In this document: in pieces, positions 13,546 to 28,348 of the stretch | Position numbering within the stretch: position 1 is the stretch's first letter | How the letters are laid out: each line of letters starts with the position of its first letter | NCBI RefSeq assembly: GCF_003217215.1 | Contig: NZ_QJTD01000003.1 | Span: 1-64,000 of the forward strand | Reading direction: 5' to 3' | Source of the DNA: Winogradskyella epiphytica | GTDB taxonomy: Bacteria > Bacteroidota > Bacteroidia > Flavobacteriales > Flavobacteriaceae | Length of the DNA stretch: 64,000 bases | The notes under the pieces: generated by a model | Databases searched by the model: none | What the model saw: only the letters and a program-made list of their open reading frames with translations | Told to the model about the DNA's origin: nothing | Program-made: the position numbers and the translations under genes

Positions 13546-13563
13546 TCCCCGCCCAGCCGCCTA

Positions 13564-13711: not shown

Positions 13712-13722
13712 CCCAAGCTATG

Positions 13723-13800: not shown

Positions 13801-13961
13801 ATATCCGCTCAGCCCACGCGCACATCCGAACAACCAACAAACAACCGTATAAATTGAAACTGTAGTACTACCAATCCCTCACGATTATAATTTCCACTTT
13901 TCCCCAACCACCCTTTTCAGCGGTAATAAAAAAATAGGTTTAGAAACTTTAGTACTACGCC

Positions 13962-14026
13962 ATAGCACATTCCTTTTTCGCCTTACCCTGGGCAAAAGCC
14001 CAAGGAGTCAAAAAAGAAAAGAGCTA
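13962..14026. repeat. 65-bp inverted repeat with tetraloop-like centre
   Basis: Outer arms ATAGCACATTCCTTTTT and AAAAAAGAAAAGAGCTAT pair imperfectly. The centre CCTT-n-GGGC-AAAA-GCCC-AAGG is a strong hairpin. Confidence 0.55.
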
Positions 14027-14041
14027 TCGGCTACAAGTCCA

Positions 14042-14101
14042 GTATGCGTAGCGTGTTTAAAAGCTGCTTTACCAAGCAACAATTTAAAACGCTACCCATA
14101 C
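14042..14101. repeat. 60-bp inverted repeat
   Basis: Arms GTATGCGTAGCGTGTTTAAA and TTTAAAACGCTACCCATAC pair with two single-base irregularities around a 21-base loop. Confidence 0.65.
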
Positions 14102-14268
14102 AACCGCTTCACCCACCCCTCAATGTAGAACTAAAACCTATTTTTTTAAGTGTTAATACCCCAAAAAGTGATTAACATTGTTACTCCTTTACAATAGAAA
14201 GATGGTTATAAAATATAAAAAAGCATGCAAATATATGTGCCTTCCTTCAGCCAACGCTAAAGCCTATC

Positions 14269-14338
14269 AAGGTCAAGCCCTACGGGTTACGGAAAAAATC
14301 TCCACCTTCCAGGTAGTATTTTTCCCGTAAACCTTGAC
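14269..14338. repeat. 70-bp inverted repeat
   Basis: Left arm AAGGTCAAG...TACGGG...ACGGAAAAA and right arm ATTTTTCCCGTAAACCTTGAC pair imperfectly, with an inner CTCCACCTTCCAGGTAG hairpin-forming loop. It is G+C rich for this genome. Confidence 0.55.
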
Positions 14339-14355
14339 AGCCTTACCCACGTCAC

Positions 14356-14442
14356 ATTCAACATAGCTGTCTTTTTTCTTTTCAAAAAAAAATAATGGTG
14401 CGAAGCATAGCGAAGCAATTTTAAATTGGATAGCTATGTCAA
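14356..14442. repeat. inverted repeat overlapping a start codon
   Basis: Arms CAACATAGCTGTC and GATAGCTATGTCAAC. The right arm contains the ATG at 14436 of the next gene, so pairing in the mRNA could hide its start. Confidence 0.45.
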
Positions 14443-14876
14443 CTTTTGAACTAAAAACACACCAAGTCGGAAGAACCTACTCAAACCCTCATTTTTTCAT
14501 CTTAAATAAAGGTCTAAATAGTGGAAAACCACTACCAGATCCTTGCCCTAACTGTTTTGTTGTAATCACAAAGACAGAAACAGATAAAAATACCCTTTTT
14601 TACTTGTCGATGATGTTGCAAATAGGCGGTTTCTACGCTCACTATTTAAAAGGAAGTGTTATTCCGTTCATATCAATAGATGATTGCAGAAACACGCTTA
14701 AAAAAGGCTTAATATCAAACAGAAACAACTCTGGTCAGATACAAAAGCTTATTAATGTTGTTGAGGTTATTACTAAAAAACAAAATGAGCTTCAAAATAC
14801 AATTAATAAAATGTCCGATTTGAAGATGGCGTATATCCGTAATTGTTTCAATCTAATGCAAAGTAAAGTTGTCTAA
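14436..14876 (+). CDS. conserved small protein (DUF6943-like)
   Basis: 146 residues. The N-terminal part contains HFFILNKGLNSGKPLPDPCPNCFVV, and the middle has GSVIPFISIDD, a pattern I recall from DUF6943 proteins of Bacteroidota mobile elements. The C-terminal 45 residues form an amphipathic helix. No catalytic site is evident and the function is unknown. The ATG lies inside a long inverted repeat. The family name is from memory and unverified. Confidence 0.7.
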   Translation: MSTFELKTHQVGRTYSNPHFFILNKGLNSGKPLPDPCPNCFVVITKTETDKNTLFYLSMMLQIGGFYAHYLKGSVIPFISIDDCRNTLKKGLISNRNNSGQIQKLINVVEVITKKQNELQNTINKMSDLKMAYIRNCFNLMQSKVV

Positions 14877-15013
14877 TGCAAAGGCATCGTAAGTGCCTAG
14901 AACATTAACAAAAAGGCATTATTTTCGTTATATTAATAGAGTTAAATAGGTTTAAAAGCAATATCAAGTCCGTACCAAATCCGAACGAGTATTAATTTTA
15001 AATATTTATAAAG

Positions 15014-15655
15014 ATGGGGAAAATAGCCCAAGGAATTTTAGGAGGCTTATCTGGTAAGGTAGGTAACATTATAGGCGGTAGCTGGAAAGGTATTGACTAT
15101 ATTAGAATTAAGCCATCAAGCGTGGCAAACCCTCGTACAGAGGGGCAAGTTAATCAACGTAATAAATTCACTATTACATTGGAGTATCTACAAGCAAATA
15201 AAGATTTTGTAAAGATCGGTTATAAGGCTTTTGCAACTAAGAAAACAGAATTTAATGCTGCTATGTCTTATGTGCTGAATAATGCTGTAGGCGGTTCTGC
15301 ACCGAACTTTACTATTGATTACTCTTTAGCTTTACTAAGTAGAGGTGGTTTATCTAGTGTTCTAAATGGTGCAACTGATTTAGCTACTCCTGGTCAAGTT
15401 GCTTTTAGTTGGGATGATAACTCAGCAGAAGGAAATGCAAATGTAACCGACAAAGCAATGGTTTTAGTTTACAATCCAAGTAAAAGGGAATCAATATCTA
15501 TCCTTGATGGTGCTGATAGAACTGTAGGCTCTCAAGTGGTAACAATACCAAATACCTATGCAGGTGATACAGTAGAGCTTTTTATGGCATTTGTAACTGA
15601 AGATGGTAAAACAGTATCGAATAGTGTGTATTTAGGCTCTGGTACGGCAGCTTAA
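15014..15655 (+). CDS. DUF6266 family protein
   Basis: 213 residues. The N-terminus GKIAQGILGGLSGKVGNIIGG, followed by WKGIDYIR and SVANPRTEGQ, is the hallmark I recall for DUF6266, a family of Bacteroidota proteins of unknown function found in mobile elements. The rest is a predicted beta-rich domain resembling immunoglobulin-like or phage structural folds. It has no signal peptide. It is the last gene of the element, with a rho-independent terminator behind it. Confidence 0.82.
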   Translation: MGKIAQGILGGLSGKVGNIIGGSWKGIDYIRIKPSSVANPRTEGQVNQRNKFTITLEYLQANKDFVKIGYKAFATKKTEFNAAMSYVLNNAVGGSAPNFTIDYSLALLSRGGLSSVLNGATDLATPGQVAFSWDDNSAEGNANVTDKAMVLVYNPSKRESISILDGADRTVGSQVVTIPNTYAGDTVELFMAFVTEDGKTVSNSVYLGSGTAA

Positions 15656-15680
15656 TAACTTTAAGTTTAAATACATATTA

Positions 15681-15715
15681 AAAACCGTTTCTATTAATTT
15701 AGAAGCGGTTTTTTT
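15681..15715 (+). terminator. rho-independent terminator after the DUF6266 gene
   Basis: Stem AAAACCGTTTCT / AGAAGCGGTTTT with an 8-base loop, followed by a T run. Confidence 0.85.
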
Positions 15716-15830
15716 ATGCTTACAAATCACTTAATTATCAGGTTTAAAATGTTAGACCTATGTTATACCTATTTTAATAATATTTATTTTAAGCCTTTAA
15801 ACACAACACATACAAAGGTATATTAATATA

Positions 15831-15840
15831 ACACGGTGTT
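15831..15840. other. attR core direct repeat
   Basis: ACACGGTGTT, second copy of the element boundary. The bases that follow (GTGCATA) are the displaced end of repeat R2 and the start of cassette 8. Confidence 0.7.
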
Positions 15841-15857
15841 GTGCATAGTTATTTATT

Positions 15858-16394
15858 TTATTCCAACATTCGGTTTATTTTTGGTCTCCAATAGTCAATA
15901 TTTTCTTCTATAGGCAAGTCAGTTTTATAGATACTATCCTCAACTGCTAATAATTCAGCATAAATTTTCGTGCCAATTTTTTCTAAATCCGAATATAATA
16001 TGTCATCTCTGTATTTAATTTTATTAATTTCTTTATTAAATTTTCTCGCAAAACTCTCGTAAAGGTCAAATCGCAATTTCTGCATTTTCATCAGTTCTTT
16101 GAAATCCGTTGTGTCTTTTATCCACGATTTATTTTGATCAAATAATGCTTTTACTTCTGCATCTTTTAAGTTGGTCGATTTTAAGTAAAGTCCGTGAAAC
16201 CACGATTCGTTTGAGTCAGAATTCAAATTAGCTTCTGCTTTAAAATCAGATGGTTTTATTTCCACGTTTTCAGACCAAAAAACCACGTGTTTTTTTAGAA
16301 AATAATATTCAATTTGAATTCTTGTATTCCAGTATATGATTCCAATTATAATAACTGAAATAATGGCTATAACGATTTTTTGGGTTTTTGTCAT
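15858..16394 (-). CDS. membrane-anchored hypothetical protein (cassette 8)
   Basis: 178 residues from the ATG at 16394 (MTKTQKIVIAIISVIIIGIIY). A single N-terminal membrane anchor (about 6-22) is followed by a helical, charged extracytoplasmic domain with no cysteine and no known motif. A TTG start at 16406 would add four residues but lies inside repeat R3, so the ATG is preferred. It is the only gene of its cassette. The stop lies 13 bases beyond the cassette end at 15845. No family recognised. Confidence 0.75.
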   Translation of the reverse strand: MTKTQKIVIAIISVIIIGIIYWNTRIQIEYYFLKKHVVFWSENVEIKPSDFKAEANLNSDSNESWFHGLYLKSTNLKDAEVKALFDQNKSWIKDTTDFKELMKMQKLRFDLYESFARKFNKEINKIKYRDDILYSDLEKIGTKIYAELLAVEDSIYKTDLPIEENIDYWRPKINRMLE

Positions 16395-16400
16395 AATTAT

Positions 16401-16531
16401 GCACAACGGTCTAGTGTATGAGTAGTAGCGGATATATAAGCACTACTTTTCGGTAAGCAATATACTCAAATAAACACAGAAACGGTTCGAGTTTGCACTC
16501 AAACCGCTATTACTTATACACATTGTTGTGT
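16401..16531 (-). repeat. R3, attC-like repeat, 131 bp
   Basis: Begins GCACAAC and ends GTTGTGT. The outer arms pair well (GTGTATGAGTAGTAGCGG against CCGCTATTACTTATACAC). The central hairpin is different from R1/R2: CGGTTCGAGT-TTGC-ACTCAAACCG (16483-16506). The structure is kept while its sequence has changed. Confidence 0.78.
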
Positions 16532-16536
16532 ACCGT

Positions 16537-17034
16537 TTATTTATTTTCTTTCAATCTAAACAACTTTGTTAACTGGTAAACGGCATAAGCTGGTAAAATC
16601 ACTCGAAAAGCATTCAAAATCCCCCATAATTTTAGTTTTGAAGGTATTTGCTCGGCAGGAATAATGTTTTCACTAAAAACAGGAACATTAATAAATGTAA
16701 TAATGTAAACTGAAATTCCATAAGTAATTAAAAATGCTATAAAAGCCTTCCAAACAATTTTTTTGTCTTGCTTTTTTTGCATAAAGCCAGATTTTTTAAT
16801 AACTAAGCCAATAAATCCGATTAGCACAATGGTTGAAGTAGGGAAGTGAAAAACTCCTGCATCAACCACGTGGTGAAATTTTCTGAAATTTTCTGCATTT
16901 TCAACGATGTCACCAACCAACCAATTGGTTACATAGGTAATTTGCTCAAATAGTTCGACTATTCCTAATCCAGTTAAAGAAATAAATGTTGCTATTAACC
17001 AGTTAAAGTCTCTTTTTGTTTTTACTGTATTCAT
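16537..17034 (-). CDS. four-segment membrane protein (cassette 7)
   Basis: 165 residues with about four hydrophobic segments (roughly 12-32, 65-82, 93-113 and 135-155). The internal FHHVVDAGVFHFPTS resembles histidine-containing motifs of small integral membrane proteins, but no family is recognised. It follows the AraC regulator in the same cassette with an 84-base gap, so it is probably the regulator's target or cotranscribed partner. The stop lies 6 bases beyond repeat R3. Confidence 0.78.
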   Translation of the reverse strand: MNTVKTKRDFNWLIATFISLTGLGIVELFEQITYVTNWLVGDIVENAENFRKFHHVVDAGVFHFPTSTIVLIGFIGLVIKKSGFMQKKQDKKIVWKAFIAFLITYGISVYIITFINVPVFSENIIPAEQIPSKLKLWGILNAFRVILPAYAVYQLTKLFRLKENK

Positions 17035-17118
17035 TTTATGCTTTTTTTTTTAAAATTCATACTGCAAAACTACAACGGTAAAACATTGTTTATAATACTA
17101 AAATCTATGTGTTAATTA

Positions 17119-18018
17119 TTAAAAGTTAGGTTTTTGTGTTTTTCTAAAATTTGTAGGAGATTGATTTGTCATCTTTTTAAAGAAATTAATAAAATTTGAT
17201 GTTGCACTAAACCCTAATAGGTCAGCTATTTCGTCTATTGTTTTTTCTGATTGTATTAGCAGTGTAGAGGCTTCAAGTATTTCATAATCATTAATAACCA
17301 TTTTAGCTGTTTTGTTTGTAGCTTTTTTTACACATTCAGACAAGTAAACCACACTTAAATTTAGTACGTTAGCGTAAAAACTTAATGAATTACGAGTGTG
17401 AGAATATTTTCTGATTAAACTTTCAAATTTGAATGCAATTTGTTGTTCTCGTGAAATAAAAGAATTCGTTAGAGTTTCGTTTACTAGAGATTTTTTAGTT
17501 TCAAGAAGAAGTATTTTTAAATAGGACTTAATAATCTCTTCATTGTCAAGTGTAAAACATTTGAACAAATCATAAATTTTACTAAACAACTCTTTGAAAA
17601 GATTTTGGTTTTCATTTAATTGATAAAATGGCGAGTAGTTTAGATTGAAAAAAGGATATTTTTTTTGTAGGTTAAAATCACTTAACGTATTGCTTATAAA
17701 TGACGAATTAAATAATATCATATATCCGTTTGATAAGTTTTCTACACTTTTAACATTAACTGAAAGAGTTTGTTGCGGTGTAAGAAATGATAAAATTGTT
17801 TTGTTGTTTGAGGAAAAAGAAACATTATCTATAATAATATCAGCGTTATATTCTTTGGAAAAATAAACTTGATAAAATTCGCATTTTCGTAAAGTTGTTT
17901 TATGAGGAATTTCATTGGTATGATCTTCAAACCTTAGTATATGAAAATCATTACTTTTTATATGTTTTTCTAAATTAATTGACTTTAATAATGAGGGAAT
18001 ATTTTGATGATTTTCCAT
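17119..18018 (-). CDS. AraC-family transcriptional regulator (cassette 7)
   Basis: 299 residues from the ATG at 18018. The C-terminal AraC domain (about 205-299) has two helix-turn-helix motifs, the second marked by TIDEIADLLGFSATSNFINFFKK and the closing SPTNFRK. The N-terminal sensing domain (about 1-190) is a predicted cupin-like beta fold with no recognised ligand. An upstream frame adds 18 residues but these are encoded by repeat R4, so the internal ATG is chosen. It forms a two-gene cassette with the downstream membrane protein, which it may control. Confidence 0.9.
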   Translation of the reverse strand: MENHQNIPSLLKSINLEKHIKSNDFHILRFEDHTNEIPHKTTLRKCEFYQVYFSKEYNADIIIDNVSFSSNNKTILSFLTPQQTLSVNVKSVENLSNGYMILFNSSFISNTLSDFNLQKKYPFFNLNYSPFYQLNENQNLFKELFSKIYDLFKCFTLDNEEIIKSYLKILLLETKKSLVNETLTNSFISREQQIAFKFESLIRKYSHTRNSLSFYANVLNLSVVYLSECVKKATNKTAKMVINDYEILEASTLLIQSEKTIDEIADLLGFSATSNFINFFKKMTNQSPTNFRKTQKPNF

Positions 18019-18031
18019 ATCTCTTAATGGT

Positions 18032-18162
18032 ACACAACGTGATTGTGTATGATTAGTGGCGTGTTTAAGCAACTAATTTAGCAAATAAAAACCGAATAGA
18101 AAATCCGCGAGGATTTTCGTAAGTAGGCGAGAACCAGCCATTAATTATACACGGTGTTACCC
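18032..18162 (-). repeat. R4, attC-like repeat, 131 bp
   Basis: Begins ACACAAC and ends GTTACCC. It is the closest relative of R2: it shares TGTGTATGATTAGTGGCGTG, the central AAAATCC-GCGA-GGATTTT hairpin and TTAATTATACACGGTGTTA. Confidence 0.78.
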
Positions 18163-18172
18163 AACGTTTTTA

Positions 18173-18706
18173 TTATTCATACAGTTCATTAATCGTAATA
18201 TTCTTTTTGTCTTTTAGATAATTGCTAACGAGTTTATTGTAGCAATTCAGATTGTCGTAAACCATACAACCAAGGTCAAAATTTTCTATTCCGTATTCTT
18301 TTATATTTTCCGATAAATTTCCTGAACCAACTAAACCACTCGAAAAATATTTCATTTCATTATTTGCTAAATCAGTTGTAAATCGGTCAGTTATTTTTTC
18401 GCAATCTAATTCGTGATATTCAGTCAATATTTTTTCAGTCCTTATCATTCCAAAATAGTCCAAAGTCAGTTGAGTTGTCAGAGTCACTAAAACAATTCCA
18501 ATTCCGAGTGCTGTTAAATTCAAAAATTTGCTTTTTATCTTTAAATTCTTTGGCAAGAAGAAAAACACAATTAATATAATCGCCAATATTGCTGGAAAGT
18601 AAAATTCTTGATAAAAGAACTCGTACATTTTACTGTAACTGAAAATTCCTAATCCAATTCCAATTAGTGTTAAAGTCAGAATTATGTTTTTCAGTTTATC
18701 GTGCAT
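18173..18706 (-). CDS. hypothetical membrane protein (cassette 6)
   Basis: 177 residues with three hydrophobic segments (about 8-24, 33-52 and 63-84), then a soluble C-terminal domain of about 90 residues containing three cysteines (near HELDCEKI, NFDLGCMVYDN and LNCYNK) that could form disulfides if outside. The ATG at 18706 sits close to the cassette's right end. No family recognised. Confidence 0.75.
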   Translation of the reverse strand: MHDKLKNIILTLTLIGIGLGIFSYSKMYEFFYQEFYFPAILAIILIVFFFLPKNLKIKSKFLNLTALGIGIVLVTLTTQLTLDYFGMIRTEKILTEYHELDCEKITDRFTTDLANNEMKYFSSGLVGSGNLSENIKEYGIENFDLGCMVYDNLNCYNKLVSNYLKDKKNITINELYE

Positions 18707-18721
18707 ATTTGGTCAAATGTT

Positions 18722-18852
18722 GGGTAACGGATTTGTATAACCGTCCGTTGCAAGATAAAGAAATTATGAATATTAATAAGCACAACATTAGCCAATTGCG
18801 AGGTTTTTCCGAAAGGAAAATCAGATGCAATGGCGGTTATACATTGTTGGCA
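18722..18852 (-). repeat. R5, attC-like repeat, 131 bp
   Basis: Begins GGGTAAC and ends GTTGGCA. Outer arms TTTGTATAACCGTCCGTTGCA and TGCAATGGCGGTTATACA pair with extra bases on one side. The central hairpin is TTTTCC-GAAA-GGAAAA (about 18805-18820), another sequence change that keeps the stem. Confidence 0.75.
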
Positions 18853-19391
18853 ACAGTTATTTTTAATTCTACGTGATTCATTAAATATTCCGAAAACCAT
18901 TTTAAATCATTCAGAACATATTTTTCATTTTCGTCGTCAAATCCGAGAATTTGATGTTTCCTTTCTTCGTTGTCTATTAAGTAAAGATTTCCCTCGTAGG
19001 TTTCTTCTCCAATTTGTTCGGCAGAGTATTCAAAATCTTTTATGCTCTTTGCGTCAAAGGTATATTCTCCAAAATCGTTTTTTATTTTAATTGCTTTGTG
19101 GTCAAGTGTTTTTAAGTTGTCATTTGATTGTTTTTTTGCTCTTATTCTTGAGTAGCTAAAAAATCCTGTTCCGAACAATAATATAATCCCAGCAATAATT
19201 TTTCCGCGAAATTCAACATCGTTTATAAACATAAATAAACAAATTCCAAGAGCAGCAACTATTGGAAGAATGACAAGTCCGATTAGTGTTCCATAATCTG
19301 CTTTTGATTTCCCAATAATTATTTTTCCGTTTTCATTTGAGTAGGAAATTCTATGTCTTTTCAATTTAGATTCTAAAATTGAAGTATTCAT
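18837..19391 (-). CDS. membrane protein with PH-like domain (cassette 5)
   Basis: 184 residues. Two hydrophobic segments (about 35-55 and 64-82) are followed by a beta-rich domain with one C-terminal helix (LKTLDHKAIKIKNDFGEYTFDAKSI...), the layout of bacterial PH-like membrane proteins. The last residues (TVANNV) and the stop are encoded by repeat R5, so the repeat supplies the gene's 3' end, as attC sites can do in integrons. Function unknown. Confidence 0.75.
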   Translation of the reverse strand: MNTSILESKLKRHRISYSNENGKIIIGKSKADYGTLIGLVILPIVAALGICLFMFINDVEFRGKIIAGIILLFGTGFFSYSRIRAKKQSNDNLKTLDHKAIKIKNDFGEYTFDAKSIKDFEYSAEQIGEETYEGNLYLIDNEERKHQILGFDDENEKYVLNDLKWFSEYLMNHVELKITVANNV

Positions 19392-19411
19392 CTGCGTTTT
19401 GGTTTAATTGT

Positions 19412-19546
19412 TGCCAACGTCGTTGTGTATGATTAGTTGCGTGGTTAGGTAGCTAATTTAGCAAACTTTTACAAGCCAGAGAAAATTCCGCAGGAATGTT
19501 CGTAAGTAAGCTTAAAACAAGCAATTAATTATACACGGTGTTAGCA
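19412..19546 (-). repeat. R6, attC-like repeat, 135 bp
   Basis: Begins TGCCAAC and ends GTTAGCA. It contains TGTGTATGATTAGTTGCGTG, a central hairpin GAAAATTCC-GCA-GGAATGTTC, and AATTAATTATACACGGTGTTA. Confidence 0.78.
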
Positions 19547-20322
19547 AATCGTTTTTTTATTAATACGATATTTTCTATTGTTTTCACGTTAACACCGTTA
19601 TAATCATCATTATTTTCCATTATAATTTTATCAACAACCATTATACTATCAGTAAGCGTTTTTATTTTCCAGACTTGTTCAGTTATTCTAAAATTGCTTT
19701 TTACGTCCATAGTTATAAATTCAAAGCTACTATTTATGTGAATTTTTGATTTTGATTCAGAGTAGCCATATTTTACATTAATTGAGTCTAATGTAATGTC
19801 ATATAAAGATTGTTCTTGAAAGTCTCTTTTATGTTTAAAATTTGGTGGTGGTAGAGGTGGTGGAATAAGATTAGGTGGTGTTTTGGGAATGCTGTCGTTT
19901 TTATAATAATCATTTAATTCATTCATAACCCAAGTACCTATTAACAATTCTTTATTCCATTTCGGATTTCTTTTCTTGAGAGTATATTCATAATCTTTCA
20001 CACCAATTAGTAAACCATCAAAAGTATTTTTATCTAATTGCTTGATAGCGAATGTTTTGTAAGCCATAACTAAAAACTGATTATTATCAAAAGTCGTGAC
20101 TCTCCAAGGTAATTTTCTGTACATTGCTTCGAAAAATGCACTAGACGAGAAAACCGAATATGTTGAGTCTTTAAATTCAATAGTTAGAGTGTCTTTTTCT
20201 TCAATTGATATAATGTCAAAAGTATTTCCTTTTAATTCACTTTCAATATTAAGATGGTCAATATTTTTTTGACAACTTAACATTGTTGAAATCATTAGAG
20301 AAATTAGTATTAACTTGCTCAT
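19525..20322 (-). CDS. hypothetical lipoprotein (cassette 4)
   Basis: 265 residues. A lipoprotein signal (MSKLILISLMISTMLSCQK, lipobox cysteine C17) anchors a beta-rich domain. A proline-rich stretch near residues 150-160 (TPPNLIPPPLPPPNFKHK) divides it into two halves, which look like lipocalin-type or DUF-type beta domains. The last codons and the stop lie inside repeat R6. No family recognised. Likely located in the periplasm or outer membrane. Confidence 0.75.
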   Translation of the reverse strand: MSKLILISLMISTMLSCQKNIDHLNIESELKGNTFDIISIEEKDTLTIEFKDSTYSVFSSSAFFEAMYRKLPWRVTTFDNNQFLVMAYKTFAIKQLDKNTFDGLLIGVKDYEYTLKKRNPKWNKELLIGTWVMNELNDYYKNDSIPKTPPNLIPPPLPPPNFKHKRDFQEQSLYDITLDSINVKYGYSESKSKIHINSSFEFITMDVKSNFRITEQVWKIKTLTDSIMVVDKIIMENNDDYNGVNVKTIENIVLIKKRFANTVYN

Positions 20323-20333
20323 TTTTAAATGTT

Positions 20334-20530
20334 TGCTAACGGTCTAGTATATGAAACGTAGCGTATAAATAAACACTAACTTTTCGGATTATACACGAGC
20401 CAAATTTTTATTTTTTCTATTTATCTTTAATTTTTTAAATATACAAAAATAAAAATTTGGTGGACTTAATAGAGAAGCAAAAACCTCTCGGAAAGCCTGT
20501 AATAGCTATGTTTTATATACATTGTTGTGC
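20334..20530 (-). repeat. R7, attC-like repeat with enlarged centre, 197 bp
   Basis: Begins TGCTAAC and ends GTTGTGC. The outer arms keep the family pattern (GGTCTAGTATATGAAACGTAGC against GCTATGTTTTATATACATTG). The centre has an extra inverted repeat, CCAAATTTTTATTTTTT/AAAAATAAAAATTTGG (about 20400-20461), making it 65 bp longer than its relatives. Confidence 0.7.
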
Positions 20531-20586
20531 ATAGTGCTTTTCACGTTTTGCTTGGTTTTCCGATGTTTGTTATTTAGTTCTAAATT

Positions 20587-20674
20587 GAGCGTTGGCAAGA
20601 CATATTCTTTTACAGTTTTGGTGGTGCGATGGCTTGAGCGACTGTAAATGTGTTTGGCTTTAAGCGTTGGCAAT
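20587..20674. repeat. second-family repeat, left border of metal module
   Basis: 88 bp beginning GAGCGTTGGCAAG and ending AAGCGTTGGCAA. Imperfect arms ACATATTCTTTTACAGT/ACTGTAAATGTGT enclose GGTGGTGCGATGGC. It matches in layout the repeat at 24161-24249. I recall similar GCCAACGC-bounded repeats being abundant in other Flavobacteriia. Confidence 0.55.
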
Positions 20675-20679
20675 TCCGA

Positions 20680-21474
20680 TTACTTGCTTAATTTCAAAAT
20701 CCGAAATGCACCTTGTATTACCACTATAAAAACGATTGTTCCAACAATTAAATCAGGTTTGTTGGAATTTAGCCAATTCACTAAAATTCCTGCAATTATT
20801 ACTCCCAAATTGATAATCACGTCATTGGAAGTAAAAATCATACTTGCTTTCATATGTGCCTCTTCTTTGCTCTTTGACTTTTGTAAAATGTAAAGACAAA
20901 TTCCGTTTGCGATAAGTGCCAAAATCGACACGATAATCATCGTTGAAAAATCGGGAAGTTTTTCGGCTCCAAAAAATCTTCTCAATACTTCCACAAATCC
21001 GATAATCGCAAGTGTTATCTGAAAATAGCCTGCAATTTTTGCAATCCGTTTTTTCTTAATCAACGTTCCACCAACCGCAAACAAACTAATTCCGTACACG
21101 AAACTGTCCGCAAGCATATCTAAACTATCGGCAACCAATCCCATTGATTTCGAGATGAGTCCTGTGGTCATTTCGATAATGAAGAAGACAAAATTTATCG
21201 CCAGTACAATCCAAAGTAGCTTTTTTTGGTTGGTGTTTTCTACAAAATCTTTTTCGTTGGTTTCTTCGGTCGAAATTTTCTTTCCGCCTAAATTTAATTC
21301 GATAATTGACTTTTCAATTTGGTCGGATTCTCCGCTGTGAAAAACAGTCAGTTTTCGGTTCGGAATATCAAAGTCCAAATTCGCAATACTTGAAATTCCG
21401 TCCAATTTCATTCGTATAAGATTTTCCTCGGAAGGACAATCCATCTTACTGATTTCAAATATCGTTTTGTTCAT
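20680..21474 (-). CDS. cation diffusion facilitator family transporter (cassette 3)
   Basis: 264 residues from the ATG at 21474, one base after the TonB receptor's stop. The short N-terminal HMA-like domain (about 1-65, KMDCPSEENLIRMKL with CPSE) is followed by six hydrophobic segments of a CDF exporter; the first contains FFIEMTTGLISKSMGLVADSLDMLADS, including the metal-site aspartates. Members export Zn, Co, Cd or similar ions by proton exchange. Longer starts at 21498 or 21486 overlap the receptor gene and seem less likely. Confidence 0.88.
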   Translation of the reverse strand: MNKTIFEISKMDCPSEENLIRMKLDGISSIANLDFDIPNRKLTVFHSGESDQIEKSIIELNLGGKKISTEETNEKDFVENTNQKKLLWIVLAINFVFFIIEMTTGLISKSMGLVADSLDMLADSFVYGISLFAVGGTLIKKKRIAKIAGYFQITLAIIGFVEVLRRFFGAEKLPDFSTMIIVSILALIANGICLYILQKSKSKEEAHMKASMIFTSNDVIINLGVIIAGILVNWLNSNKPDLIVGTIVFIVVIQGAFRILKLSK

Positions 21475-21475
21475 T

Positions 21476-23659
21476 TTAGTCGTCATCTTCGTTTCCAAAA
21501 GGTTTGATTATTACTCCAACGCTAAATATAAAACCGTCTGTTGGTGCATAAATTTCGGAAAATTCTGGATTGTCGTGTGGTGGCAAAACCAATGGCGAAA
21601 ACCTGCTTTGTCTTCTGTCCGTAAAGTTTTCAAAATTCACAAACGTTGTTCCCCATTTAAAATTTCGCATTGCCACAAAACCCATTGTTATGAAGTCGGT
21701 TGTTTCTGTTCCATTAGACAAAAATTGTTTTCCTGTGTAAAACGTTTCGTAACCGATTCGCCATTTTTCAGATTCGTACATCAAAACACTTCCTGCGTTA
21801 TGTTTTGCAGTTAGCGGTTTTTGTGGATTTCCAGCCAAATAATTCAATTTTGTGTCAATGAGTGCATAATTCAAGAACCAACGAAAATCTTTATAGGTAA
21901 ACTTGATGTTTGTTTCAGCACCTTTGCTCAAAATTTCATCTGTTGCATTCTCAAATTGGAAAAATCCATTATCAGTTGAATTTAACAGTAATGCATCATT
22001 AATCGCAGTTACATAAAACAGTTGATTAATAGAAAAACCAACGGTTTCAAATAAACGTGTTTGATAGTTGAAATCAAGATTTACACCGTAAGAACGTTCC
22101 GCATTTAGTGAAGATTTATCAATACCAAGTACATTTACAAAATTGATAAATTCCGCCTCTTCTGTAAAAATATCTGGAATTTTGTAACCTAATCCACCAC
22201 CAATTCTGCTCGAAAATCCACTATCGTTTTTGTATAGCAATGAAACTCGTGGAAGCGGAAAAAAGCCAAAATCAGTATTGTAATCTGCTCGCAATCCTGT
22301 TTCCAAAATCCAATTATCCGAAATGTCATAAATGTTATTTGCAAATGCTCCATAAGTTATGTCTGTTTGGTCGCGTTGCAAAGTTGCATTATCATTTTCA
22401 TCAAAATCAGAAGTATATAGGTTTGCTCCAAAAATCCAATCTGTTTTATTGGCTGACTTTTGATAGTTTATTTCCGTGAATGTATTGGTTTGTTTACCGT
22501 CAAATGTAAAATCGGGAATGGTCAGTTCTCTGTCGAAGAACGAGATACTATTTTTGATAGTTAATGAACTGACGGAATCTATTTGAGTTTCGTAAACCGC
22601 TTGACTGCTCAATCTTTTCGATACGTTTTCTTCGGTATATTGATGGATGCCATTTTCGCCACTTTCAATTTTTGTGATGTCGCCACCAATTCTGTCGTCA
22701 TACGTTCCGTTTAAGCCAAACCAAAATGTTGTTTTTTCCGATGGATAATAAAAGAACTTTGGGTTGAATGAAATCGAAGTTGTTTTTGGCAAGTTACTAA
22801 AGTCATCATCTTCTGGGTCATACGCTTTTTGATAATGACCTGAACCATAAAGTGAAACACCAAATTTTTCATTCCGTTTGCTGTAAAATACATTTGCTGT
22901 ACTTCCCAGAGCTTGGGTTTGTGTCAACATAATATCCAAAGCAGGTTCTTCGTCTGGTGTTTTGGAAACCATATTTATCAAACCTGCAATCGCACCACCA
23001 CCATAAAGCGTTGATGAACTTCCTTTTATTATTTCAAATTGTTTTAAGTCTAATGGCGGAATTTGTAAAATACTCAAACCGCTAGAAAAACCGCCATAAA
23101 GTGGAAATCCATCTCTCAAAAGTTGTGTATATCGTCCATCGAGACCTTGAATTCTAATGTTGGTATTTCCGCTACTTAACGAAGTTTGTTGCATCTGTAT
23201 GCCTGTACTTTCCCGAAGTACCATTGAAATATTCGTTGGGTTCATTACTGCTTTTTCGCTTAATTCCTCCGCTCCGATAAATTCTATTCTCGTCGGTATT
23301 TTTCTAACAGTTCTTGTACTTCTTGAAGATTGTATGACTACTTCGTCAAGTTCATTTCCTCCCGATTCGAGCTTGAAATCGAACGCTGTTTTTGTTCCAA
23401 CATCAATAGTAGTTTCTATGGTTTCAAAGCCTATGTAAGAAATTTTTATAATAAGGTTTCCGTTTGGGATTTCTGTGAACCTTGCAATTCCGTCAAAATC
23501 GGTTACTGCTCCTTTCTCTAATTCTTCAAAATAGACGGTCGCTCCCAATAGTGGTTCGTTAGTTTCTGCATCTCTAACAGAAATGGAAATATCACTCGTC
23601 TGTGCGAAAGATATAATTGATACGAATAAAAATAATGTGTTTAAAAATATGTTTTTCAT
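21476..23659 (-). CDS. TonB-dependent outer membrane receptor (cassette 3)
   Basis: 727 residues with a signal peptide (cleavage near SFAQT), a carboxypeptidase-like regulatory domain (about 22-105: ETNEPLLGATVYFEELEKGAVTD), a plug domain (about 118-230: VRKIPTRIEFIGAEEL and GLDGRYTQLLRDGFPL) and a 22-strand-type barrel. It imports a metal complex or siderophore across the outer membrane with TonB energy. Context with a Fur-type repressor and a CDF exporter argues for a metal such as zinc, cobalt or iron. It shares a cassette with both. Confidence 0.92.
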   Translation of the reverse strand: MKNIFLNTLFLFVSIISFAQTSDISISVRDAETNEPLLGATVYFEELEKGAVTDFDGIARFTEIPNGNLIIKISYIGFETIETTIDVGTKTAFDFKLESGGNELDEVVIQSSRSTRTVRKIPTRIEFIGAEELSEKAVMNPTNISMVLRESTGIQMQQTSLSSGNTNIRIQGLDGRYTQLLRDGFPLYGGFSSGLSILQIPPLDLKQFEIIKGSSSTLYGGGAIAGLINMVSKTPDEEPALDIMLTQTQALGSTANVFYSKRNEKFGVSLYGSGHYQKAYDPEDDDFSNLPKTTSISFNPKFFYYPSEKTTFWFGLNGTYDDRIGGDITKIESGENGIHQYTEENVSKRLSSQAVYETQIDSVSSLTIKNSISFFDRELTIPDFTFDGKQTNTFTEINYQKSANKTDWIFGANLYTSDFDENDNATLQRDQTDITYGAFANNIYDISDNWILETGLRADYNTDFGFFPLPRVSLLYKNDSGFSSRIGGGLGYKIPDIFTEEAEFINFVNVLGIDKSSLNAERSYGVNLDFNYQTRLFETVGFSINQLFYVTAINDALLLNSTDNGFFQFENATDEILSKGAETNIKFTYKDFRWFLNYALIDTKLNYLAGNPQKPLTAKHNAGSVLMYESEKWRIGYETFYTGKQFLSNGTETTDFITMGFVAMRNFKWGTTFVNFENFTDRRQSRFSPLVLPPHDNPEFSEIYAPTDGFIFSVGVIIKPFGNEDDD

Positions 23660-23726
23660 CTGCTTATTCTGGTTTAAAAGAATAATGCAAATGTATTTAG
23701 GATTTACTGCAACTCGATTGCAAAGA

Positions 23727-24137
23727 TTACTTGTTACAGTTATCGCATAGACCTTTTACGACCATATTTGCTTGTTGTAGTTTGAAGTTTTCGGGAAGTT
23801 GAATTTTGGGAATAGGAACATCAAAAAGGCAGAATGTTTTATCGCAGTTTGTGCAATAAAAATGATAGTGCAAATCCTTTGGGTCGCAGTTACAGCCTTT
23901 GGCACAAACCGCATATTTGGTCATTCCAGAACCATCTTCAATGCTGTGGATAACTTTGTTTTCCTCAAATGTTTTCAGCGTTCTGAAAATCGAACTTCTG
24001 TCAGTATATGCCAACGCGTTTTCAATATCTTTTAAAGATTGGGCTTTTTCTTGGCTCAAAAGATGTCGTAAAACCACAGTTCTGACTGCGGTGTTTTTTA
24101 CTTTTTTTATTTTTAGGATTTCTTCTTCAGTTTGCAT
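23727..24137 (-). CDS. Fur-family metal-responsive repressor (cassette 3)
   Basis: 136 residues: N-terminal winged helix (about 12-75), then a metal-binding dimerisation domain with HYHFYCTNCDK (CxxC) and the closing CDNC pair (CxxC), the structural zinc site. An extra CAKGCNCDPKD stretch just before HYHF is cysteine-rich and may be a sensing site. It probably represses the receptor and exporter genes downstream in the same cassette when its metal is abundant. Whether it is Zur, Fur or another specificity cannot be told from sequence. Confidence 0.9.
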   Translation of the reverse strand: MQTEEEILKIKKVKNTAVRTVVLRHLLSQEKAQSLKDIENALAYTDRSSIFRTLKTFEENKVIHSIEDGSGMTKYAVCAKGCNCDPKDLHYHFYCTNCDKTFCLFDVPIPKIQLPENFKLQQANMVVKGLCDNCNK

Positions 24138-24160
24138 TTTCCTAATGTATCATTTTTTTC

Positions 24161-24249
24161 GAGCGTTGGCGAAAAACAGCTCTTTTATTTTTTTAGCGTT
24201 GGTATTTCGCGTTGGCAAAAAAAATAAATGTGCTGTTTGTGCGGTTGGC
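24161..24249. repeat. second-family repeat, right border of metal module
   Basis: 89 bp beginning GAGCGTTGGCG and ending GCGGTTGGC. Imperfect arms AACAGCTCTTTTATTTTTTT and AAAAAAAATAAATGTGCTGTT enclose a loop carrying GCGTTGG twice. Same layout as 20587-20674 with a different stem sequence. Confidence 0.55.
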
Positions 24250-24294
24250 TTTTTTAGTTCAAATGTTGAATTTTAGAACGATTTTTTGCATTAT

Positions 24295-24426
24295 GCACAA
24301 CGTATTTGTGTAATGAACGTTGCGGTTTTGTATGCGAGGATTTTCCGCAGGAAAATCAGAGTTACAAAAAAGCAACGACCAATAGTTTAGACCAAAATAA
24401 GCAATGTTTTTTACACGGTGTTACCC
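24295..24426 (-). repeat. R8, attC-like repeat, 132 bp
   Basis: Begins GCACAAC and ends GTTACCC. Arms TTTGTGTAATGAACGTTGC and GCAATGTTTTTTACACGG. Central hairpin GATTTTCC-GCA-GGAAAATC. Confidence 0.75.
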
Positions 24427-24443
24427 TACGTTTCTATTTTTTA

Positions 24444-24929
24444 TTAAAATCCGTTTACTGAAAAATCAAAATATTCTTTTTTATCAACATCCACTTGGAC
24501 TTGCCAAAAGCAATTTCCACCATCATAAACATCGAAATAATGAGATTTCCATTCAATTTCTTTTTGAACATCTTTACTGCTTAAATCCTGAATGGGATTT
24601 TGAACAAAATCTTTACACAATGAATTTACATAAATTATTTTCCGATTGTTTTTGTCTAAGTAAGGGATAAATTGATAATAATAGTCATTGAAATTTATAC
24701 TAAGTTCTTTGACTCCATAATCCGTTATATTATTTTTAATTATTTCCTTTATAAATTTTTCGGTAAAATTGATTTCTGATTTATTAGGTTCCCACGTTTT
24801 TAAATTTCCATAACGGAATGATTCGTTTCCGAATTGATTTATTAAAACTGTAACATTATCTGACGTGTGTTTTTCTACGCAAGAAACTAAGATGAAAATC
24901 AATAATATTAAACTTAGACGAATGTTCAT
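24444..24929 (-). CDS. hypothetical lipoprotein (cassette 2)
   Basis: 161 residues with a lipoprotein signal (MNIRLSLILLIFILVSCVEK, lipobox C17). The mature part has a mixed fold with two cysteines (SLCKDF and GNCFWQVQ) and an aromatic C-terminus ending KKEYFDFSVNGF. No family recognised. It is the only gene of its cassette, and the stop lies 14 bases beyond repeat R8's GTT. Confidence 0.72.
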   Translation of the reverse strand: MNIRLSLILLIFILVSCVEKHTSDNVTVLINQFGNESFRYGNLKTWEPNKSEINFTEKFIKEIIKNNITDYGVKELSINFNDYYYQFIPYLDKNNRKIIYVNSLCKDFVQNPIQDLSSKDVQKEIEWKSHYFDVYDGGNCFWQVQVDVDKKEYFDFSVNGF

Positions 24930-24938
24930 TCAAATGTA

Positions 24939-25072
24939 GGGTAACGTTTATGTATATGGAAAGTTGCGGTTTTGTGTGCGAGGATTTTCCGAAGGAAAAT
25001 CAGACGTAACAAAACTAGCAACTAACTTTGGTTAAGCCAGAAACCAGCAATTTTTTATATACGGTGTTGGCA
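24939..25072 (-). repeat. R9, attC-like repeat, 134 bp
   Basis: Begins GGGTAAC and ends GTTGGCA. Arms TTTATGTATATGGAAAGTTGC and GCAATTTTTTATATACGG. Central hairpin GATTTTCC-GAA-GGAAAATC. Closely related to R8 in the middle (GTGTGCGAGGATTTTCC). Confidence 0.75.
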
Positions 25073-25082
25073 AATCGTTTTT

Positions 25083-25490
25083 TTATTTCAGATTATAATT
25101 TTTCAGTAAGCTTTTCAATTCCATTAAAGAATTCGTTTCGACGATTTGAGTGTCAATTACAAATTCAGTTTTTTCCGTAATTAGTTTTAAATCTCCAGCA
25201 AATTCTCTTATAAATTTCACTTCTTTAAGTTTTATTTTTTTCGGAAATAAAGTGTTCTTAATTAATTCTCCGTTTTTCAGAGTCAGATATTGTTTTTTGT
25301 TCTCAAAGTAGTAAATCATAAACATTGGAATTCCTGCCAAAATTTGTCCAATTCCAATTGAAGCGAGTGAAATTTCTTTCCATTTTATAATAAAAGATAA
25401 CAAAACGAAAATAATTCCGATTGTTACAAAGAATATTCCCATTCTTAAATTACTTCTTAATCTTTCTTTTGAATATCTGATTTTTGTCAT
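25083..25490 (-). CDS. membrane protein with PH-like domain (cassette 1)
   Basis: 135 residues. Two hydrophobic segments (about 17-34 and 43-61) are followed by a small beta-rich domain (QYLTLKNGELIKNTLFPKKIKLKEVKFI...) ending in a helix, the plan of bacterial PH-like membrane proteins. It resembles the cassette 5 protein in layout but not closely in sequence. It is the first cassette beyond the recombinase, so it would be the most recently inserted one if the array grows as integrons do. Confidence 0.75.
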   Translation of the reverse strand: MTKIRYSKERLRSNLRMGIFFVTIGIIFVLLSFIIKWKEISLASIGIGQILAGIPMFMIYYFENKKQYLTLKNGELIKNTLFPKKIKLKEVKFIREFAGDLKLITEKTEFVIDTQIVETNSLMELKSLLKNYNLK

Positions 25491-25502
25491 TTCTCAAATG
25501 TT

Positions 25503-25560
25503 TGCCAACGTTGTTGTATGTTTAGTGTTGTGTATATATCAACTATACATATACTTACAA
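25503..25560 (-). repeat. R10, terminal half-repeat, possible attI
   Basis: Begins TGCCAACGTTGTTGTATG, matching the left arms of other repeats, but then diverges into a short symmetric stretch (GTATATATC...ATACATATAC) and runs into the recombinase stop codon. There is no right half. Its position at the array's recombinase end fits an attI-like primary site. Confidence 0.5.
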
Positions 25561-26685
25561 ATCTAATGGATTTTTTATAAAATCAAAGCTACTTTTTGCT
25601 ACATGTGTGTAAATTTCAGTGGTTTTGGTAGAATTATGACCCAATAATAACTGAATATAACGAAGATCAGTCCCAGATTCTAATAAATGAGTAGCAAAAC
25701 TATGCCTCAATATATGCGGGGAAACTCGTTTCTTAATCCCTGCTTTCTTAGCAGCATCAGAAACTATCTTACCCACACTATTCGCGCTATATGGTCCTTT
25801 AGTTGGACTCTCAAATAAGTAATCACTTGGCTTCCACTGCTTATAATATGTGCGTAAATCATTTAAAGTGTTAACAGATAGTAAGGTGTATCTGTCCTTA
25901 TTTCCCTTAGCGTCTGTCACGTGTATAAGCATCCGTGAACTGTCTATATGAGAAAGCTTTAAATTTAATAACTCACTCCGCCTTAAACCGGCAGAATATA
26001 GTAAACTTACAATACAACGATGTTTTATATTATTAGTACATTCTATAATACGCTTAACATGCTCTTTAGATAAAACAATAGGAAGCTTTTTTTCCGGCCT
26101 AGGACGCTCAATCATATACAGCCTGTTAGGCATGCCCTTTACAATTTCATAATAAAACTTTATACTATTAATAGCAACATTAATATAAGAATTAGAACGA
26201 TTTTCTTCTATAAGGTGGGTTAAATATGCCCTAATGTCAATCTCATTCAATGAGTCAATCTCCTTATTGTAATAAAAATTAATGAAGTCTTCAAAACTAG
26301 CAATATAAGACTTTACAGTGTTATTCGAATATTTTTTTAACTCAAGCTTCTGTACATATGAATCCGGACAATACTTGTAGTTCAATCGATGCTTACGTCT
26401 TTTATACCAACCAATATTAAAATCTTCGTCAAGTTGTTTAGATCTTGTCTTTTCAAAAAAATATTTGGAATCAATCCATGCAACACCCTTAAATATACGG
26501 TAAACACTATCTAAGTGACGTTTGGTGTTAGGAATATAATACATGTTAAAGCTGTCACTCCACTGTACAGAATCAAGCTCTTTAACTAAAATTTCTAAAG
26601 CCTTATTTGTGTAAAACTGAAGACCAATGTGCCTCTTGTTGTCTATTAATAAATGCTTTAATTGGATGTGCTGACTATGTTTCAT
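25555..26685 (-). CDS. XerC/D-like tyrosine recombinase at the head of the cassette array
   Basis: 376 residues: an N-terminal extension of about 80 residues (YIPNTKRHLDSVYRIFKGVAWID), a SAM-like core-binding domain (about 105-185) and a catalytic domain (about 203-370). Catalytic residues R235, K260, H324, R327, H350 and nucleophile Y359 are all present. The spacing R235 to R327 is 92 residues, as in XerC/D, so the extra IntI segment is absent. The C-terminal KNPLDL tail is reminiscent of integrase ends such as RSPLD. It is transcribed toward the cassettes and stops at the terminal half-repeat. It probably moves the cassettes, but that is inferred from position. Confidence 0.9.
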   Translation of the reverse strand: MKHSQHIQLKHLLIDNKRHIGLQFYTNKALEILVKELDSVQWSDSFNMYYIPNTKRHLDSVYRIFKGVAWIDSKYFFEKTRSKQLDEDFNIGWYKRRKHRLNYKYCPDSYVQKLELKKYSNNTVKSYIASFEDFINFYYNKEIDSLNEIDIRAYLTHLIEENRSNSYINVAINSIKFYYEIVKGMPNRLYMIERPRPEKKLPIVLSKEHVKRIIECTNNIKHRCIVSLLYSAGLRRSELLNLKLSHIDSSRMLIHVTDAKGNKDRYTLLSVNTLNDLRTYYKQWKPSDYLFESPTKGPYSANSVGKIVSDAAKKAGIKKRVSPHILRHSFATHLLESGTDLRYIQLLLGHNSTKTTEIYTHVAKSSFDFIKNPLDL

Positions 26686-26769
26686 AATATGTTTTTTGCT
26701 TAAATTAAGCTTTATAAGTATCTTAAGAGTTTAATAAGCGAATAATAAACGTTTAACTAACAGGTAGAT

Positions 26770-27162
26770 ATGCTTACCAATAAAAAAAATAAAACTTGTA
26801 AAGCTTGTGATAAAATTTTAATAGGCAGATCAGATAAAAAATTCTGTAATGCCAATTGTAAAAGCGCTTATCACTATGGGAAATATTTAGAAGAAACACC
26901 CAAGTTTTATTATAAAGTAGATCGTCAGTTAAAAAAGAATAGACGAATCCTAAAAAGCTTTAATAAAGCAGGTAAGGCCACAGTAAGATGTCATATATTA
27001 TTAGAAATGGGATTCAATCCAAATTTCTTTACGCACTTTTGGAAAAACAAAAAGAACGATGTATACCTATTTGTATACGAATATGGATTCCTAAAGAAAG
27101 TAGAAAAAGGAACAGAAAAATACATATTGGTGAAATGGCAAGACTATATGTTTAAAAAATAA
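26770..27162 (+). CDS. zinc-ribbon protein conserved in Flavobacteriaceae
   Basis: 130 residues, very basic. An N-terminal zinc ribbon has CKACDK and CNANCKSAYHYGKY (four cysteines at about 11-34), followed by a lysine-rich helical region and a beta-type C-terminus. Similar ribbons bind nucleic acid. It is divergent from the recombinase with an 84-base gap. I recall homologues as DUF2116-like proteins spread through the family, so this is probably the first core gene right of the array, but a link to recombination cannot be excluded. Confidence 0.75.
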   Translation: MLTNKKNKTCKACDKILIGRSDKKFCNANCKSAYHYGKYLEETPKFYYKVDRQLKKNRRILKSFNKAGKATVRCHILLEMGFNPNFFTHFWKNKKNDVYLFVYEYGFLKKVEKGTEKYILVKWQDYMFKK

Positions 27163-27670
27163 AAACAATGTTACTAATAGCGAATCCATAAATTATCTAA
27201 ACAACTTTACTGTCACCCAACAAAAAAAGAACATTTATAGTTGAGTCTAAACCACTAGAGAAGTTACTTACATTTGGCTTAAATTAATGACCGTATTCAG
27301 ATAATATATCAGATGGTGTCTCGATAATGTATGGATGGTGTATGGATGGTGTATGGATGGTGTATGGATGGTGTATGGATAGTGTAGGGTTAGATAATGT
27401 AAAATAAACCATACAATAATATAAGCATCAATGGAAAGTTTCTAGAATCAAAAACACCTTAAACCGAAGAATAGGGCATAGCAACAAATAATAAACTAAG
27501 GTTTTACGTAATTATAGAAACTAAAAAAAACAATGGACTAAATACAGTCTATAATTTAGAGGTGTAACCGTTAAATAAAGTTGTATAAAACCTTAATATA
27601 TTCTACATAAATAGGTAAAAGTGAGATGTAGTAAGAGGAGAATAATAGAAAAATTCTTTAAACCCAAAAG
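27163..27670. other. gene-free stretch holding a tandem repeat
   Basis: Apart from the 11-bp tandem repeat at 27328-27382, nothing recognisable was seen on either strand. AT-rich with many stops in all frames. Confidence 0.5.
27328..27382. repeat. tandem repeat, five copies of an 11-bp unit
   Basis: TGTATGGATGG repeated five times without gaps; the last copy has A in place of the tenth base. It lies in non-coding DNA and is likely to vary in copy number between strains. Confidence 0.9.
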
Positions 27671-27823
27671 CTATTCTATCGCATTTTTAGTCACATAAAC
27701 GCGCCAACCTATTATAGCCATTTGAAGTTTAGTTGCCTTACTAAGATCTAGTTGCTTTTTAGAGTAACTTGGAAGAATGGCTTTGTTTAATTTTGCCAGA
27801 AACTTAAAAAGTGACGTCTTCAT
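27671..27823 (-). CDS. conserved 50-residue small protein
   Basis: A 50-residue frame from ATG at 27823 to TAG (MKTSLFKFLAKLNKAILPSY... IIGWRVYVTKNAIE). Basic and amphipathic, with no signal peptide. I recall near-identical small proteins across Flavobacteriaceae, always unnamed. A good flavobacterial promoter box (TATTTTTG on the minus strand, 27849-27842) lies 19 bases upstream of the start. Both points argue that it is a real gene in what would otherwise be called an empty gap. Function unknown. Confidence 0.75.
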   Translation of the reverse strand: MKTSLFKFLAKLNKAILPSYSKKQLDLSKATKLQMAIIGWRVYVTKNAIE

Positions 27824-27841
27824 AATTTTTATACTTTAAGT

Positions 27842-27849
27842 CAAAAATA
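27842..27849 (-). promoter_or_regulatory. flavobacterial -7 promoter box
   Basis: Reads TATTTTTG on the minus strand (consensus TAnnTTTG), just upstream of the 50-residue gene. Confidence 0.55.
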
Positions 27850-28348
27850 GTAAAACTTATTCTAGAACTAAGTTTTACCTTTAATTTGATCGATAGTCTT
27901 ATCGATTCGTCTAGCTTATATTATTGAAAAAACTATATCAATAATTATCTTTACAAGTGTCATCATAATTTTAGGTTTTTGAAGGTTAATAATTGAATGA
28001 GTTTTCAATATATAGGTTCAACACATTATCTTCCAAGTGTTTATGTGAAAATCGACAAAATTGAATTTAATTATATAAGTAAATAAATCTAAATTGTTTT
28101 AATAATTTGTGACCTGTCTTAAGTTACGTTATAATTTGTAACCATAATTGAGCATAAAGATTGCAAATAGATATAATTCAAGGGCCTTTTTATATTCGTC
28201 TTCTTGAACTAAGGGGGTTTTGATCTTTTAAAATGGAAATTTTGATCATTTCGTCATTTTTTTAAAATGTTATGTGGTGAAATTCATATTCTATTCAGAT
28301 TGTTTTTTGTAATTAAATCTGATTTCCCACTTAGCTATAATAAAATGA
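27850..28348. other. gene-free AT-rich stretch
   Basis: No gene, strong hairpin or repeat was seen on either strand. A short inverted repeat, ATCGATAGTCTTATCGAT (27889-27906), is the only structure noticed. Confidence 0.45.

Follow-up and report, generated by a model that had tools for sequence, protein, structure and literature searches.

A probable integron-like cassette system in Bacteroidota whose recombinase lacks the IntI-specific domain

The closest described systems to the locus considered here are the class 1 and chromosomal integrons that depend on IntI integrases. In those integrons, as in the present system, a cassette array of single orientation starts at the recombinase gene, and the recombination sites combine R and L boxes with an asymmetric spacer, complementarity between a cassette's own ends with the GTT triplet, and a folding bias toward the bottom strand. 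According to the available text of one study, extrahelical bases and an unpaired spacer are features of all attC sites, the first extrahelical base is decisive for strand choice, and in sites without extrahelical bases the spacer suffices to keep the bottom-strand preference (PMC2727003). The accessible part of a second source ties the I2 helix of the integrase both to the extrahelical bases and to the block of the second strand cut (PMC4792948). Reversed integrons, in which the integrase is transcribed toward the insertion site as it is here, are described for Treponema; the available portion of that report treats the gene as intI, whereas the protein discussed below lacks the IntI insert and carries an N-terminal domain (PMC3607928). 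IntegronFinder, to judge from the accessible part of its description, identifies integron integrases by an IntI-specific domain profile on top of a general recombinase profile (PMC9668308), so that a recombinase without that domain should escape being counted as an integron integrase. A 2022 survey, in the part available, lists, outside Chlorobi and Ignavibacteriae, a single complete integron for Bacteroidetes proper, that of Salinibacter (PMC9024848). Our search of the literature, which covered titles and the beginnings of abstracts and left bioRxiv and most subscription papers outside its scope, returned neither an integron whose integrase is devoid of the additional domain nor such arrays in Flavobacteriaceae.

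We analysed a stretch of 64,000 nucleotides of the Winogradskyella epiphytica genome (positions 1 to 64,000 of contig NZ_QJTD01000003.1), hereafter termed the window. The ORF listing of this 64-kb window includes a tyrosine recombinase of 376 aa beside a cassette array, with the following features:

25555-26685, minus strand: array recombinase, a tyrosine recombinase without the IntI insert, 376 aa
26458-26685, minus strand: N-terminal domain, residues 1-76 (AF2 pLDDT 90.3; weak XPB/HARP fold likeness)
26137-26355, minus strand: core-binding (SAM-like) domain, residues 111-183, Pfam PF13495
25594-26073, minus strand: catalytic domain, residues 205-364, Pfam PF00589

The gene of the first cassette begins at 25490, and the 3' end of the recombinase gene adjoins the array, as a preliminary description of this DNA had said. 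The same description had reported a complete catalytic set, and all six residues (R235, K260, H324, R327, H350 and Y359) are indeed present at those positions. Among named homologues, those of Bizionia come nearest (78% identical), and a second copy in the W. epiphytica genome (L087, 85% identical) has its own array on the 3' side. Homologues were divided into a long type (ORFs of 340 aa or more, together with L016, L132 and L136) and a short type (272-300 aa); the reading frame of L016 is interrupted, L132 and L136 comprise 305 aa, and all three, which lack a full N-terminal domain, are counted among the 77 long-type loci discussed below. The six catalytic residues are all retained in 58/58 long-type proteins, and each of them in 21 to 23 of the 23 short-type proteins.

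The window protein departs from IntI in the spacing of its catalytic arginines (R235-R327), which is 92 residues against 134 in IntI1 and 133-135 in 12 IntI proteins including IntI1; the earlier figures of 92 and roughly 130, and the missing IntI region deduced from them, are borne out. Spacings are likewise short in the long type (92-97, n=58), the short type (91-98, n=23) and housekeeping Xer (97-102, n=13), and the range in archaeal XerA-like proteins (90-93, n=10) is similar to the value in the window. A spacing of 92 rather than 133-135 indicates that the IntI-specific insert is absent and that no miscount is involved. With the integron-integrase model TIGR02249, the best stretch of the protein ends at model position 179 and scores 198.1 bits against a cut-off of 265; a genome search with the same model finds the gene covering positions 7-179 and 242-313, with 180-241 unmatched. 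Spacing and gap both locate the absence in the additional domain specific to IntI (the I2 / patch III region).

Among the 12 NCBIfam models matched, the window recombinase passes only the XerA-type NF040815 (233.7 vs 220 bits), a model named 'site-specific tyrosine recombinase/integron integrase', and misses the housekeeping cut-offs for XerD (197.7 vs 329.6 bits) and XerC (186.8 vs 335.15 bits). A quick tree of 126 rows, picked by hand after their surroundings had been searched and with the short fragment L028 left out, places 12 IntI on one side of a branch without any long- or short-type recombinase (SH-aLRT 100), and splits off 13 housekeeping Xer with nine other rows (SH-aLRT 99), the window recombinase lying outside. 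The long and short types are grouped with four other rows at SH-aLRT 89, a branch that is not starred. Phylogeny, proposed as a check in the preliminary description, keeps the protein out of housekeeping Xer, and the label 'XerC/D-like' used there is imprecise for a protein that passes only a XerA-type model. We place it as a tyrosine recombinase on the XerA/IntI side of this tree. Its best matches in sequence and in fold are of XerA type (5hxy, 4a8e; NF040815), with the IntI structure 2a3v close behind; linkage to a cassette array and the extra N-terminal domain set it apart from that type. The site model R1 (see below), which may miss distant site types, found no site beside the archaeal homologues searched. 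To judge from sequence comparison, the system would work like an integron but its recombinase is not a member of the IntI family: the additional domain is absent, the sites mostly have no extrahelical bases, and the protein lies outside the IntI clade. An AU test did not reject a joint clade of IntI with the long and short types (p 0.393), so common descent of all cassette-moving recombinases is possible, as is a single integron lineage in part of which I2 was lost or never present.

The covariance model R1, based on seven window sites picked out by eye, detects nine attC-like sites in the window, all in a single orientation, seven of them within 16398-25074 and two near the window start. Read from the recombinase outward, sites (all R1) and cassettes are:

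25083-25490, minus strand: cassette 1 gene, without assigned function (STM3941 family below cut-off)
24936-25074, plus strand: attC-like site S1 (the cassette bottom strand is the plus strand)
24444-24929, minus strand: cassette 2 gene, without assigned function
24292-24428, plus strand: attC-like site S2
20680-24137, minus strand: cassette 3, three ORFs, boundaries from end-pairing analysis
20331-20533, plus strand: attC-like site S6, with a long loop
19525-20322, minus strand: cassette 4 gene, without assigned function
19409-19548, plus strand: attC-like site S3
18837-19391, minus strand: cassette 5 gene, without assigned function
18719-18854, plus strand: attC-like site S4
18173-18706, minus strand: cassette 6 gene, without assigned function (FEKKY domain below cut-off)
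18029-18164, plus strand: attC-like site S5
16537-18072, minus strand: cassette 7, two ORFs, one an AraC-type regulator (Pfam)
16398-16532, plus strand: attC-like site S7
15858-16406, minus strand: cassette 8 gene, without assigned function
1476-1613, plus strand: attC-like site, presumably belonging to cassette 8, its R'' end apparently split by a 14.2-kb element
736-871, plus strand: attC-like site further along the array

From reading alone, we take the ORFs of cassette 3 to encode a cation-efflux protein, a TonB-type receptor and a Fur-like regulator, and the second ORF of cassette 7 to encode a membrane protein. PADLOC, run on eight window proteins, gave one marginal match (LmuC, E 0.0096) and nothing convincing, and Rfam had no match within 15500-28000 at E <=1. 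The apparent 14.2-kb element (1598-15840), with a phage-type integrase at 1768-3006, interrupts an attC-like site in its R'' end, is bounded by 10-bp direct repeats ACACGGTGTT (1598-1607 and 15831-15840), and may have used the cassette site as its target; its ORFs, again by reading only, presumably include a modification-restriction pair. What might pass for a final site, near 15640-15870, more plausibly marks the far end of this inserted element.

The cassette boundaries carry a distinctive signature. In 8/8 consecutive window cassettes, the R'' end is complementary to the beginning of its own cassette over 9-10 nt, whereas complementarity between R'' and the neighbouring R' extends over just 3-6 nt (seven comparisons; permutation P 5e-5). 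Family-wide, at least 4 nt beyond GTT are shared by 147/178 own pairs, against 17/273 same-site pairs and 72/1163 other pairs, 15 sites without readable flanks being excluded from the own-end count. Such own-end complementarity is the look expected of cassettes that would circularise through paired GTT crossovers. The W. epiphytica genome holds at least 124 site matches at E <=0.01 among the 150 scored of 3539 candidates, many of them on small contigs, and in nine stretches of it the longest ORF lies on the expected strand in 44 of the 56 cassettes between consecutive sites. Related cassettes recur at several places of this genome, a recurrence that falls short of strain-level proof of movement.

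Site folding was compared among sites spanning 100 to 250 bases. In 205/240 long-type and 24/28 short-type sites the bottom strand folds more stably than the top strand; the commonest central spacers have 4-6 nt on one side and 1-3 nt on the other, and the L stem is free of bulges in 6/7 window sites. The best gapless 16-mer duplex reaches at least 15 pairs in 169/240 long-type and 24/28 short-type sites and in 0/38 sites at canonical IntI loci, and two or more small bulges are present in 2/240, 0/28 and 29/38 sites, respectively (one bulge in 46/240 long-type sites, fewer than two in 9/38 IntI-locus sites), a contrast that is partly pre-sorted because the models R1 and R2, the latter built from R1 hits in family loci, derive from mostly bulge-free sites and R3 from bulged ones. 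R3 found three low-score site matches in the 11 family sources given to it, and R2 marked 11 places at E <=1 among 13 IntI sources, of which four belong to a genome carrying the long/short-type family as well. Stems mostly without extrahelical bases thus differ from those of IntI integrons, and the missing bulges and the missing I2 insert would fit each other. As for precedents, attC sites, one of them active with IntI1, have been reported in Polaribacter phage P12002L according to the available part of the source (PMC9892861); R2 has no match in that phage at E <=1, and the report has no bearing on the present sites.

From own-end complementarity together with strand-biased folding, we infer that the sites would be recombined as single strands. 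The locus is probably an integron-like cassette system of Bacteroidota with a non-IntI integrase that acts on folded bottom strands at GTT. A competing account holds that the recombinase moves cassettes by double-strand exchange of the Xer type on dif-like sites, their hairpin potential being incidental. Xer-type recombinases act on double-stranded sites, and part of the stem is well conserved in the W. epiphytica genome, where a 13-mer from it has 47 matches with at most one mismatch against 4 for a reversed control. The window protein also lacks the I2 helix; IntI uses this helix against the second strand cut, as stated in the available part of the source (PMC4792948). However, cassette ends vary from one cassette to the next yet stay mutually complementary, and a double-strand site needs neither such pairing nor a bottom strand favoured in the large majority of long-type sites. 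For these reasons we regard double-strand exchange as improbable, though it is the strongest of the competing accounts.

The reading of folded bottom-strand sites served by the adjacent gene gains from the distribution of the family. Profile A3, made from 13 relatives with the N-terminal domain, has matches in 115/395 sampled genomes of the phylum at E <=1e-62, which suggests that Bacteroidota harbour an extensive pool of mobile cassettes that has gone unrecognised. Across 296 genomes of the order, A3 marks 93 places at E <=1e-70, two of them in the W. epiphytica genome; beyond these, fragments and proteins of 298-316 aa form a graded tail merging into housekeeping Xer. Loci L105-L144 are the A3 places ranked 3 to 42 in the order, L165-L184 (11 short, 9 long) were drawn from the remaining places in the order and L206-L225 from the phylum list, the last two sets having been hand-picked before their surroundings were searched. 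When R1 was applied to the 40 loci L105-L144 and to 20 housekeeping-Xer loci, all 129 hits fell in family loci; the control loci had sites in 0/20 with R1 and in 0/20 with R2.

Sites lie on the 3' side in 60/77 long-type loci (the window locus excluded) and in 55/56 of those whose 3' sequence extends to 2 kb or more; among the 17 without sites, 16 have less than 1.4 kb of 3' sequence and L015 has 3.9 kb. The preliminary description had proposed a survey of whether homologues always sit beside arrays, and 55/56 against 0/20 controls answers it: the association of gene and array is systematic. Neither homologues mostly remote from such repeats nor a place inside housekeeping Xer, the outcomes named there as counting against the idea, was observed. 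The association is also polar. Fully 243/244 long-type sites are on the 3' side and are oriented so that cassette genes read away from the recombinase, in keeping with the earlier comparison to the reversed integrons of Treponema denticola as the available text describes them (PMC3607928). The long-type gene reads toward its array, in which it differs from IntI integrons, whereas short-type sites lie 5' of the gene in 36/37 cases, 32 of these showing the divergent arrangement known from ordinary integrons. Where a short-type locus offers 2 kb or more of 5' sequence, sites are present in 12/20 cases and absent in 8/20, and misses are expected there since the site model was built from long-type sites. 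R1 found no site in the more distant relatives among L023-L086, nor at L069; this homologue is close but partly masked, has 1.7 kb of 3' sequence and stands outside the tally. Also outside the tally, R2 gave no site at L023, two 5'-side sites at L043 (E 5e-5 and 0.08) and one 3'-side site at L048 (E 0.039). In one single-contig genome (G281), three family recombinases (L105, L132 and L136) each have sites on their 3' side.

This near-perfect and polar linkage weighs on a second alternative, in which a recombinase encoded elsewhere, IntI or housekeeping XerCD, moves the cassettes in trans and the adjacent gene is a passenger. Canonical IntI exceeds the cut-off in 105/395 phylum genomes, one of them labelled as the same class, and some genomes carry both kinds of recombinase, e.g. 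G300 (L233). Against a trans-acting enzyme, IntI over the cut-off is found in none of 196 genomes of the order, that of W. epiphytica included, and no site lies beside the 20 housekeeping Xer genes; we consider this account very unlikely. Slightly less credible still is the idea that the array is a relic on which the recombinase is now inactive, for which the break made in the window array by the apparent 14.2-kb element could be cited, but which sits poorly with the catalytic residues kept throughout the long type, the abundant site matches and dispersed related cassettes of the W. epiphytica genome, and the own-end complementarity of every consecutive window cassette. As a separate observation, R2 detects four sites near the IntI of G300.

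If the adjacent recombinase does act on folded bottom strands, insertion would take place at a site at its own 3' end, for which the window offers one candidate:

25491-25554, minus strand: candidate attI, including the junction to cassette 1; GTT crossover triplet at 25507-25509

The dyad at this candidate is weak (score 6, shuffle P 0.13). Among the 24 closest homologues inspected (L007-L015, L087, L105-L117 and the window, picked after the sequences had been seen), 14 have a dyad of 22-26 nt, at most 41 nt after the stop codon and followed 4-6 nt later by GTT. In the loci concerned (L009-L011, L013-L015, L105-L110, L113 and L114), the sequence differs between species and the pairing is kept. 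Dyads scoring at least 9 follow the stop codon in 18 of the 77 long-type loci, compared with 0/70, 1/67, 8/76 (just upstream of the gene) and 1/76 in control windows. In the mechanism that we propose, the adjacent recombinase would bind a cassette site through its folded bottom strand, a hairpin consisting of an R-box duplex, an asymmetric unpaired spacer and a largely unbroken 16-bp L stem, would cut 5' of the GTT triplet in R', and would join the cassette to the site at the 3' end of its own gene. Because joining would occur 3' of the gene, new cassettes would enter next to it and read away from it, co-directionally with the recombinase. With no I2 insert and sites mostly without extrahelical bases, the strand would have to be chosen by other means, the likely cues being the asymmetric spacer and a G.T-for-A.C strand bias of the stem. 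A natural system without the I2 helix and extrahelical bases would make the basis of strand choice and of polarity directly testable.

The N-terminal extension noted in the preliminary description exists, and at about 105 residues it is longer than the 80 given there, comprising a domain of about 75 residues predicted to fold independently and a linker. The predicted order of secondary structure is strand-strand-helix-strand-strand-helix-strand. Pfam has no match for residues 1-105 of the window recombinase, and none of eight N-terminal pieces reaches a Pfam gathering score, the best being DUF5710 (E 2e-4) and the window piece having none. Foldseek returned nothing significant (best E 0.068). 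Fold comparison (VIA) gave XPB damage-recognition domains Z 6.5, 6.1 and 6.0 and the HARP domain of SMARCAL1 Z 4.1; even the best value, 6.5, is of a size at which likeness by chance is frequent, and eIF1-like folds score similarly to XPB. The likeness to XPB and HARP is therefore a weak one of fold, without a significant sequence match, and HARP was dropped as a specific assignment, other folds being equal or better in Z. As a lead only, the domain may be a structure-specific DNA-binding module. Two further roles considered for it have been weakened: as a substitute for I2, by short homologues that lack both and have sites mostly free of bulges, and as a determinant of polarity, by L132 and L136, whose arrays lie on the 3' side although the domain is missing. 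In the 455-aa recombinase of L207, the domain is apparently present twice, a doubling that would support its being a separate module.

It is enticing to speculate that this family represents a second solution to the integron reaction. In its full form, the proposal is that a Bacteroidota family recombines folded single-stranded sites without I2 or extrahelical bases and occurs with two opposite gene polarities, the long type combining an XPB/HARP-like N-terminal domain, 3'-side arrays and an insertion site that is perhaps a hairpin conserved in structure and not in sequence; we hold this composite picture to be evenly balanced between right and wrong.

The surroundings of the recombinase gene show some additional features. 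Between it and a divergent small gene (26770-27162), repeated stretches of the type CGTTTATTATTCG lie within 26686-26770 and, by eye, are also found in relatives. The small gene has no Pfam match and, from reading only, we take its product to be zinc-ribbon-like; the CGTTTATTATTCG-type repeats are possibly an operator for this putative divergent regulator. Upstream of the recombinase region, 27312-27399 is a tandem repeat with an 11-bp period (GATGGTGTATG).
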